Shown: piece by piece, positions 3,581 to 54,133 of the stretch
Numbering within the stretch: the stretch's first letter is position 1
Layout of the letters: every line of letters starts with the position of its first letter
Origin: an uncultured Clostridia bacterium
Lineage (GTDB): Bacteria; Bacillota; Clostridia; Monoglobales; Monoglobaceae
NCBI GenBank assembly: GCA_947631965.1
Contig: CANRNL010000007.1
Coordinates: 1-64,000 of the forward strand
DNA length: 64,000 bases
Direction of reading: 5' to 3'
Notes under the pieces: generated by a model
The model's input: the letters and a program-made list of their open reading frames with translations, nothing else
Told to the model about the DNA's origin: nothing
Databases searched by the model: none
Translations under genes and position numbers: made by a program

Positions 3581-3997
3581 GTAGGGTCGAACCGTGTTCG
3601 CCCGCAATATCCGCGCTCCGCACGAGCGGGACGTCGAGGGCGCCGTCCCGTACATCGTCGCGCCCTGCCCTTTTTGCTTGCTTTGCCCTGTTCGGGCAAA
3701 GACGCATTTTCGGGCAGTCGCTCCTCTTCGACAAAAATCCGCAGATTTTTGTCGATAAGGAAGAACAGCGAGGCAACTCAGCTTTTAAAATTTATTTTAA
3801 AAGCGTGTATGCGTAGCTTGTTCTGACGCGTGCGGCGCCCTCGACGCACCGAACTAAATCGGAATAAAAAATAACCGACAAAAATCCGCAGATTTTTGTC
3901 GGAGAGGAGCAAGTTTCCCGTAAAAGCGCAGACGCCCGCTTGCGGGCGGCGGAGCATAAAGGGAAACTTGCGACGAGCGAACAAGGTTCGCCCCTAC
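3581..3997. repeat. Palindrome-rich intergenic element, copy A
   Basis: Ends are inverted copies: gtagggtcgaaccgtgttcgc (3581-3601) vs reverse complement of 3977-3997 (gtaggggcgaaccttgttcgc), 19/21. Internal hairpins at 3627-3650, 3728-3755, 3830-3849 and 3875-3902. Module 3903-3975 recurs at 54033-54105. Confidence 0.8.
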
Positions 3998-4027: not shown

Positions 4028-4111
4028 TCGCAAAAGGTTGGTAGTGCGCAAATCGGCGTTAAAACGGCGCGTTTACAAGCCGTTAGCCGATGCGAACGTG
4101 ACCTTTTGCGA
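4028..4111. repeat. Long hairpin with 11-bp perfect arms (tcgcaaaaggt ... accttttgcga) and an inner pairing segment
   Basis: Arms 4028-4038 and 4101-4111 are exact reverse complements; inner atcggcgttaaaacgg / ccgttagccgat pair with bulges. Confidence 0.65.
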
Positions 4112-4253
4112 AAGAGTACCCAACAGGGCACAATTCACACTAAAATCGCAAGCATACAGCTTGCTCATTAAGTGTTCATTCGAAGCCGCAGCAAAGCGGG
4201 CGACTGATTTTTTGTGCAACAAAAAATCGGAGCAAGCGTTGCTTGCTCCGACG

Positions 4254-4328
4254 TGGAGGCACCACCCAGATTTGAACTGGGGCATAAAGCTTTTGCAGAG
4301 CTCTGCCTTACCACTTGGCTATGGTGCC
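4254..4328 (-). tRNA. tRNA-Cys(GCA)
   Basis: Reverse complement ggcaccatagccaagtggtaaggcagagctctgcaaaagctttatgccccagttcaaatctgggtggtgcctcca; anticodon loop CTGCAAA; CCA encoded. Confidence 0.95.
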
Positions 4329-18355: not shown

Positions 18356-21300
18356 ATGAAAAAGAAACTTTGTTTTATATTATCTCTGATAATTATAATA
18401 TTTTCTTTTCCGCAGGGCTTTGTAAGGTCCGCGTCGTCTGCGGGAGAGCGGCTTGCCGCGTTCCCCGGCGCGGAGGGCGGCGGTATGTACGCAACGGGCG
18501 CGAGAGCTTCCTCGTCGCCCACGGTCTACCACGTCACCAGTCTTGAGGACGACGGCTCAAAGGGTACGCTTCGCGACGCGGTTTCAAAGGGTAACCGCAT
18601 CGTCGTGTTTGACGTTGCGGGAAACATTCACCTCCGGTCGCGCCTCAGCATCAAGGGCAGTAATCTGACCATACTCGGTCAGACCGCGCCGGGCGACGGA
18701 ATTTGCGTCACCGGATACGACACCAAAATAGAAGCGAGCAACGTCATCCTCCGCTATCTCCGTTTCAGGATGGGCGACGAGAACGACGTCGAGGACGACG
18801 CTCTGGGCGGAAGGAAAATACAAAACGTAATAGTTGACCACTGCTCGATAAGCTGGAGCGTTGACGAGTGCGCCTCGTTCTATGAAGACACAAACTTTAC
18901 AATGCAGTGGTGCATAATCTCCGAAAGTCTCAACAACTCGCTTCACGCCAAGGGTTCTCACGGCTACGGCGGAATATGGGGCGGCAGCAATGCGAGCTTC
19001 CACCATAATCTTATGGCGCACCACAAGAGCAGGAACCCAAGAGCGCCCGAAGGCGACTTTAAAATGCTTCAGGGCGAGGACAGCGGCGATTATGATATGT
19101 CGCAGCAGCAACAGCTTGCGGACTGGCGCAATAATGTTATCTACAACTGGGGCGGCAACTCTGCATACGGCGGTCAGGCGGCTATGGCGGTCAATATAGT
19201 TAACTGCTATTACAAACCGGGTCCCGCCACAGGAAGCGGCGTTAAAAGCAAGATATATGAGCTCTCCTCGACCGGAAACGGCAAGACATTCTTATGGAGT
19301 ACCGACCTTTATCTTGACGGAAACCATATGGACCAAAGCACGACAGTGACCGAAAATAACGCGCAGGGAGTTACCAAAGACAGCACGGCGCAAAAATATT
19401 ACGTCTGGACAGAGGGAAAGAGCGACACAAGCGCCAAAGGTATAGAATATCTGGATATAAACGAAAATCCCGACGCGCAGAACGTGCATTTTAAATTTCT
19501 TGAGGATTATCCGATAAACACTCAGAGCGCGGAGGATGCGTATGAGTCCGTTCTGGCAAGCGCGGGAGCCAGCCTTTCGCGCGACTCTCTGGACGCGAGA
19601 GTGATTGAAGATGTGAGAAACGGCACAGGCAGTCACGGCGACAAAGGAATAATCGACAGACCCTCAGACGCAGGCGGTCTGCCCGAGCTTTCTCCGGGCG
19701 AGCAGGAAGCCGACGCCGACGGCGACGGTCTGCCCGACAGGTGGGAGGATTTAAACGGCACGAACAAAAATTCGAACGACTCCGCGAAAAAGGACACGGG
19801 CGGCTATACCCACATTGAGGAATACGCCAACGATTTGGCAAGCGGAGCTTATACGAGAGACGGCGCTGACCCCACTCCGACGCAGACAACAGAACCTACG
19901 CCCACGCCGACCGAAACCGCCGAGCCTACGCCTACGCCGACCGAAACGACCGAGCCCACGCCTACGCCGACTGTCGAGCCTACTCCGACTCCCGAACCGG
20001 TGTACGGCATCACAATAGACGAAAACATAACCCACGGCTCTATCAGAGTAAGCAACACGGATAGCGAAACAGCGTCGGGCAAGCCCATTGTCTGGGACGT
20101 GTCCGAGCATCGGGACGAGATAGGCGGGAAAAAGACGTTTTATCTGAACGGCACGGACGACAGCGACGGTACGCTGACTATGTACGACGAAGATACCTCT
20201 GTTGAAACCTACGACGACGTTGCGGTCGCCAGAGCCGACAACGGTTCAAGCGCGAATACCGCCGCTAAGCCGTTTGAGGACGGCGAAGAGCCGTCAGGCT
20301 CGGTGTTTATGGTTTCACCGAGCAGAGATACGACACTGAAATTGGAGCTTTTCGTCTACGGAAGCACCAACGAAAGAACACTGCATATTTACGACAACTC
20401 CGCAGACACGGATTTGTTCACCGAAGGCGTAAGTCAGCGCGGAATATATACGTTTGAAATCCGGGCGCAGGCTGGGAACAAGTATTATGCGTGGATGGAC
20501 GGCTCAAAGCTCGGATTTAAAAGCGCGTGCATAACGGGCGAAGGACTTTCTGCAAAGGCGTATGACCTTATAGAGGTCATAACAATTCCCGACGAGGGCT
20601 ACAATGTCGAGGAAGTCTACACCACGCCTTATACGAGTGTTGTGAGTTTTTTTGAAAACCAATATTTCTTTGTTATGCCGGAGAAAGACGTGACGGTTTC
20701 GGCTGTATTTGCGCCTGAACCTACACCGTCGCCTACGGTTGAACCCTCACCGTCGCCTACACAGTCGACAGAACCCTCACCGTCGCCGACACAGTCAACA
20801 GAGCCTACGCCGTCACCTACACAGTCGACAGAGCCTACACCGTCACCTACACAGTCGACAGAACCCTCGCCGTCGCCGACGCAAACGACAGAGCCTACGC
20901 CGTCGCCAACGCAGACGACAGAGCCTACGCCGTCGCCGACGCAGACGACAGAACCCTCGCCGTCGCCGACGCAGACAACAGCCCCCTCGCCGTCGCCGAC
21001 GCAGACAACAGACCCCTCGCCGTCACCTACGCAGACGACAGAGCCTACGCCGTCGCCGACGGTAACACCCGACCCCGACTCTCGCAAAATAAAGATAATC
21101 GAATACAATAAGAGCGGAATCTTCATAAAAGTCGGCAGCGAGTATCCTAAAGAAAATCTGAATTTTACGTCAGTCACCGCAAAATACACAGACGGCGTTC
21201 TGGTCGATTACACAGTGCAAAAGACCGAACTTACCCGCGCCGCCGACCAAAATATATATTCAATACCTATTGATAAATATTTTGAGGCGGACAGCGAGAA

Positions 21301-53936: not shown

Positions 53937-54133
53937 CGGGACGTCGAGGGCGCCGTCCCGTACAACCAAAAGGGTGTGCTGTTTGTTATAATTTTACAGG
54001 GTTCCCAAAAAGCGACTTGCGCTTTTTGGGAAAGAGGAGCAAGTTTTCCGTAAAAGCGCAGATGCACGCTTGCGGGCGGCAGAGCATAAAGGGAAACTTG
54101 CGACGCTGTAGGGTGCGGCGCCCTCGACGCACC
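53937..54133. repeat. Palindrome-rich intergenic element, copy B
   Basis: Hairpin cgggacg-tcgagggcgc-cgtcccg (53937-53960), variable hairpin 54002-54032, 73-bp module 54033-54105 (69/73 to 3903-3975), inverted end hairpin 54112-54133. Confidence 0.8.

Follow-up and report, generated by a model that had tools for sequence, protein, structure and literature searches.

The CGTC super-family of REPs comprises four families, CGTC-1 to CGTC-4, distributed over five phyla from which the Bacillota are absent (Di Nocera et al. 2013; PMC3733652). Its members occur as complementary stem variants and form opposed pairs whose spacers bear hairpins, and they have no dedicated transposase (PMC3733652). The element considered here lies in a window of 64,000 nucleotides, positions 1 to 64,000 of contig CANRNL010000007.1 from an uncultured gut Clostridia bacterium (GCA_947631965.1). 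We think it probable, at roughly 0.6, that it represents a set of dispersed, non-autonomous palindromes of the REP kind, whose modules are exchanged between copies and whose folded strand is the constrained object.

The original prediction drew attention to a 73-bp module at 3903–3975 and 54033–54105, 69/73 identical in its two copies, and a count of positions gives the same figure (95% identity). The perfect hairpins placed directly upstream are also present as described, CCGACAAAAATC-cgca-GATTTTTGTCGG at 3875–3902 and TTCCCAAAAAGCG-acttg-CGCTTTTTGGGAA at 54002–54032. The module had been thought foldable, and both loci do fold far better than dinucleotide shuffles, with z = −6.0 and −5.8 as RNA and −6.8 and −4.6 as DNA for the first and second copies, values that 0/200 shuffles equalled. 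The repeat unit exceeds 73 bp: it consists of a hairpin, H, followed by (A)GAGGA, a body of ~63 nt and an unpaired GACG. The upstream hairpins are not a product of chance, since a perfectly paired stem of 9 bp or more lies immediately upstream of 32/53 bodies in the genome, versus 105/3000 random intergenic 50-mers. Three further bodies of the same architecture occur in the window, at 3656–3721 (−), 3762–3828 (+) and about 4185–4253 (+). The features are as follows.

3581..3604, + strand: GTAG-tagged palindrome, a module of the mosaic.
3627..3653, − strand: GTAC-tagged palindrome GTACGGGACGG..GACGTCCCG, with 12 copies in the genome.
3656..3721, − strand: body of GA type with tag, pointing away from the hairpin at 3728–3755; 84.7 bits with covariance model R1.
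3728..3755, strand undefined: H1-variant hairpin TCGACAAAAATC..GATTTTTGTCGA, common to two outward-pointing bodies.
3762..3828, + strand: diverged body AGAACAGC..GTTCT with GACG, the opposite partner of 3656–3721; fold z −6.0.
3875..3902, + strand: hairpin H of type H1, a perfect stem of 12 bp closed by a 4-nt loop; the two genomes together hold 25 oriented copies.
3903..3908, + strand: conserved, unpaired linker AGAGGA, of which GAGGA is kept across genera.
3909..3971, + strand: body of type M, with an 11-bp outer stem, an A-rich internal loop and the inner hairpin CGCCCG-cttg-CGGGCG.
3972..3975, + strand: unpaired tag GACG (CGTC on the − strand); GACG is found in 45/53 bodies.
4028..4111, + strand: H-like hairpin with a long loop, TCGCAAAAGGT..ACCTTTTGCGA, identified by direct reading.
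4113..4183, + strand: hairpin module U4, GAGTACCCAAC..TTCATTCGA, inserted between H and body and present in about ten other copies.
About 4185..4253, + strand: tRNA-linked body, whose GACG end abuts the CCA end of tRNA-Cys (4254–4328, − strand).
53937..53963, − strand: GTAC-tagged palindrome upstream of the second copy.
54002..54032, + strand: hairpin H of type H2 (13-bp perfect stem, 5-nt loop).
54033..54038, + strand: linker AGAGGA, second copy.
54039..54101, + strand: body of type M, second copy, with one T-G wobble in the outer stem.
54102..54105, + strand: tag GACG, second copy.
54108..54133, + strand: GTAG-tagged palindrome GTAGGGTGCGGCGCCCTCGACGCACC downstream of the second copy, with 19 copies in the genome.

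Elsewhere in the window, low-complexity, coding-like repeats with periods of 18 bp and 30 bp occupy positions 1–648 and 19847–21102.

In the body, an outer stem of about 10 bp leads through an A-rich internal loop to a GC/GC pair and then to an inner hairpin. The first two pairs of the outer stem are GC/GC in 41/53 bodies, the tag GACG/CGTC is also found in 17/18 of the bodies shown from other genera, and the foot opposite the tag reads TCCTC. H occurs in several types (CCGACAAAAATC, TCCCAAAAAGC, TCGCAAAAAGC, TCGTCAAAAAC and others), as does the body: type M, which has two alternative inner hairpins, types with the outer stems GCAACCGCGC, GCGACCGCCC and GCAGCCGAGCG, and the tRNA-linked forms. 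Types of H and types of body combine freely, and each type of H is tied to its own upstream sequence. Some copies carry an extra hairpin module between H and body, as at 4113–4183 in the window, and GTAG-tagged palindromes occur in the same arrays as separate modules.

The hairpins upstream of the two modules had been called unrelated. Their sequences do differ, but both come from a set that recurs: H1, with 25 flank-oriented copies in two genomes, and H2/H3, with about 50. The contrast between 3875 and 54002 thus reflects mostly mosaic shuffling, since H1 and H2 are distinct modules, both present in many copies, that come with upstream sequences of their own and combine freely with different bodies. 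It is a choice of module and not base-by-base covariation. The suggestion of selection on structure, or of a mechanism that rewrites both arms together, holds to the extent that structure is kept and arms do change jointly; the two-copy comparison on which it was based is not covariation of one stem. The upstream arms, which might have proved unpaired in further copies, are paired in most of them. A minority has mixed or truncated H arms (C26:23949, C35:2592), which is what recombination would leave.

True covariation is seen in the body. MAFFT with RNAalifold gave an unusable alignment of full elements because the loops of H differ in length, and alignment to a covariance model and direct parsing were used instead. 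Among 26 bodies of types other than M, 12/20 pairs have changed on both sides and 93.7% of cells remain paired; slid structures pair 25–42%, and none of 500 shuffles reaches the covariation score, although shuffling of this kind leaves the effect of shared ancestry in place. This alignment (A2) contains one wrong base (a G in place of A at the start of row 9), which affects one cell and, slightly, the model R1. A lack of covariation would have counted against the original prediction; in other genera alone, both partners have changed in 17/20 pairs, and the paired share of cells is 94.1% versus 30–42% in slid controls, although fitting that alignment to the model favours the pairing figure. Direct folding of the copies from other genera reveals the same layout of H, GAGGA, body and GACG with quite different stems.

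The element is dispersed and turns over rapidly. The window genome (G000) is a 1.95-Mb MAG, 81% complete, and the sister species, the rabbit-gut Clostridia MAG Lapin-004__bin86, is also incomplete; 1.86 Mb and 0.77 Mb, respectively, were examined. Far from existing in only two copies, the 73-mer occurs about 20 times in the window genome and has 11 matches in the sister species, which is the only other genome of the genus and the sole match in an exact pattern scan of named genomes. BLAST with the module gave no match beyond the genus, in 58 relatives, an outcome that speaks only to the unsuitability of sequence search. The model R1, built from bodies other than type M, recovers type M although this was absent from its training set. 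It finds 51 bodies in the window genome and 33 in the sister species; across R1 and the broader model R2 the counts run from 51 to 55 and from 33 to 35. R1 further detects single copies to a dozen in four other genera of the family, and the genus g6 has 4–11 copies in most genomes. Matches to R2 are patchy: 24/51 genomes of the order and 27/392 of the class, in 12 families, with the class-level figures representing model matches alone and E-values that are rough, having come from a short calibration. Copy number among relatives thus ranges from 0 to 55.

At one site (G000 C8:4030-4096 and L191-L194), body, H and flanks are nearly identical in another genus, and this copy looks old and kept in place. 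Viral carriage was considered and rejected: three degenerate patterns gave eight chance matches in IMG/VR, none of which scored with R2. A different repeat is apparent at many contig ends of the window genome (C4, C6, C2, C7, C11, C18, C22 and others), where the same two sequences (..TTGTAACACATCATTGACAAACCTACA and ..TTGTAACACATCTATTGTAAACCTACA) recur in the first or last ~75 bp; the assembly breaks there are probably due to a high-copy mobile element with such ends.

All of the 53 mapped bodies are intergenic, with 0/53 overlapping a gene as predicted by a simple script whose calls cover 86% of the sequence. Intergenic DNA flanked by tRNA or tmRNA genes holds 22/53 bodies (14/41 when counted by region), versus 11% of placeable sequence. 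Several bodies end exactly at the CCA of a tRNA and, on the tRNA strand, present a terminator-like hairpin and T run, as does the body at 4185–4253 when read on the strand of tRNA-Cys. At least some of the tRNA-side copies therefore probably end tRNA transcripts, to judge from these hairpins. A simple terminator or 5′-UTR reading of the element as a whole was rejected, since orientation relative to neighbouring genes follows no rule (++ 18, +− 11, −+ 11, −− 8).

Other structured sequences adjoin these sites. The nested hairpin GCGCCGAAAACGGCGG..GAAGACCTTGC..CCGCCGTTTTCGGCGC lies straight after the CCA of several unrelated tRNAs (G000 C6:21677, C11:3581, C11:8267 (−) and C26:24574 (−)), a second repeat that is positioned exactly at tRNA 3′ ends. 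Two loci in relatives, L206:1443-1648 and L197:657-776, each combine a copy of the element with a known RNA motif: one copy, degenerate, occupies the variable loop of a pemK RNA (RF02913, 61.5 bits), and the other, that of L197, has a weak xerDC RNA match just upstream.

The bias toward tRNA and tmRNA genes could instead reflect RNA function. The element might be a structured non-coding or cis-acting RNA, such as a terminator, processing site or stability hairpin, read in the orientation H-GAGGA-body-GACG and selected for its fold. Such an RNA would account for the strong covariation, the conservation of single-stranded GAGGA and GACG, the tRNA/tmRNA enrichment and the terminator-like hairpin with T run directly after the tRNA CCA. 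On this strand G-T pairs also outnumber A-C mismatches (30 vs 12 and 12 vs 3), a weak indication because the counts are not independent. It is harder to reconcile an RNA with the absence of a rule of orientation or position relative to genes, with copy numbers that run from 0 to 55 among relatives and turn over between sister species, and with the lack of any Rfam family describing the element when a covariance-model match over it was sought. We regard a functional RNA as a possible but unlikely account of the element.

Comparison with the sister species permits exchange to be followed at individual sites; flanking genes are 90–95% identical, and orthologous sites are therefore comparable. Most of these sites hold arrays that are made up differently in the two species, and one of them is an empty site in the sister species. 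On the 3′ flank of the tmRNA gene, terminator, tag and H1 are the same in both species, but one has a body of type M there and the other a body of the GCGACC type. On the 5′ flank, H is identical in the two species, with a long, unusual loop; it is followed by a GCAACCGCGC body in one and by type M in the other, and identity resumes at TTGCGACGA. Since the same flanks enclose different bodies, the outer and the inner stem have each had both arms replaced together and in place. The orthologous H stems at the tRNA-Thr locus are set apart by a double change, C-G to A-T, and recombinant H modules with non-matching arms occur at C26:23949 and C35:2592. A tandem array of H plus body with a 115-bp period precedes tRNA-Thr (G000 C3:75355-75885, G001 C5:43211-43388), and one species has about five units of it, the other fewer. 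No clean empty site with target duplication was resolved among the copies, since most lie in composite arrays, and no terminal inverted repeat was seen.

Could pairing be maintained with no selection on structure at all? Quasipalindrome template switching, in which one arm is rewritten from the other during replication, is a documented process that predicts perfect stems and freely varying loops (PMC8794818). The H1 hairpin conforms to this pattern, its stem hardly varying (0.018 substitutions per site) and its loop varying freely (0.27). The double change in H at the tRNA-Thr locus is likewise what template switching would produce, and tandem arrays and microhomology deletions at element sites point in the same direction. 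It leaves unexplained the conserved unpaired GAGGA and GACG, the fixed layout of the internal loop across genera, and the replacement of whole bodies by sequences almost identical to those of copies elsewhere in the genome. As a sufficient cause of the observed structures it strikes us as highly improbable.

The reading we prefer, of palindromes whose modules are exchanged, suggests the following sequence of events. H, body and neighbouring palindromes may be exchanged as units between copies by recombination or template switching, with breakpoints that would fall within the short, conserved linker (GAGGAGC) and the tag (GCGACG). What would be recognised or tolerated is the single strand in its folded state, either ssDNA at the replication fork or RNA, and only arm pairs that still match would persist. 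Template switching may help to keep the arms matched (PMC8794818), and copies beside tRNA genes may double as 3′ terminators. The homology at the tag-side breakpoint, only about 9 nt, is short and counts against module exchange by RecA-type recombination. By analogy with the attC sites of integrons, a dedicated enzyme might read the fold together with linker and tag, and not the sequence of the stem, and swap paired arms as units; a mobile Clostridia system of this sort, for which no recombinase has been described, seems decidedly unlikely.

It might also be supposed that a Y1 (HUH) tyrosine transposase or RAYT mobilises the element, which would then be a classical GTAG REP/REPIN or an IS200-type MITE. 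Tagged palindromes do occur in mosaic arrays, GTAG-tagged ones among them. The element's own tag is GACG/CGTC and not GTAG, and a cognate RAYT is not evident: Y1_Tnp (PF01797) is missing from the window genome and from 7/9 element-bearing g6 genomes, which are incomplete MAGs, several of them 94–99% complete. The one Y1 protein of the sister species is without the RAYT motif NP(L/V)(R/K)xG, and no cognate repeat was seen within the 2.1-kb locus of its gene. Mobilisation by Y1 or RAYT is disfavoured, since the distribution of Y1 does not follow that of the element, and its likelihood is very slight.

These observations extend tagged palindromic repeats to the Clostridia, where the 2013 survey had none (PMC3733652). 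Orthologous loci of the two sister species record the exchange of both hairpin arms directly, and selection on pairing can thereby be told apart from replacement of a whole hairpin in one event, two sources of "covariation" that usually go unseparated. Covariation-based discovery of RNAs in such genomes could be misled by whole-hairpin exchange. With copies that number up to 55 and turn over fast, the lineage is also a place to study how CGTC REPs move.

Among described systems, several invite comparison. Like the REP mosaics of E. coli (BIMEs), the element combines several palindromic motifs into an intergenic mosaic, but the tag and modules are other ones and no RAYT was found with it. It resembles the BOX elements of Streptococcus pneumoniae (boxA/B/C; PMC3049150) in its modularity, strong predicted folding and variable combinations of modules, whereas its composite arrays show no resolvable terminal inverted repeats with target duplication. 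The pemK (RF02913) and xerDC (RF03062) motifs each adjoin single copies in relatives and are separate from the element, one copy lying inside a pemK loop and another downstream of the weak xerDC match. To our knowledge, BOX elements and the Clostridia element have no sequence relation.

The closest likeness is to the CGTC REPs (PMC3733652). Both are intergenic, high-copy palindromes with an unpaired CGTC foot, here on the other strand, and both show complementary stem variants, opposed pairs with hairpin-bearing spacers, accompanying GTAG repeats and no dedicated transposase. In contrast to the 8–9 bp stem of the CGTC REPs, the Clostridia body is 63 nt long with two stems and an internal loop; it starts with G-C/C-G rather than with A-T first and second pairs, and its tail is TCCTC rather than a short unpaired tail that is mostly CCA. 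The second hairpin, H, is a frequent partner, and the hosts are Clostridia. Tag, location and copy number fit, whereas stem length, first pairs and tail do not, which places the element outside the four described families. It is apparently an undescribed relative of the CGTC-tagged REPs, distinct from CGTC-1 to CGTC-4.
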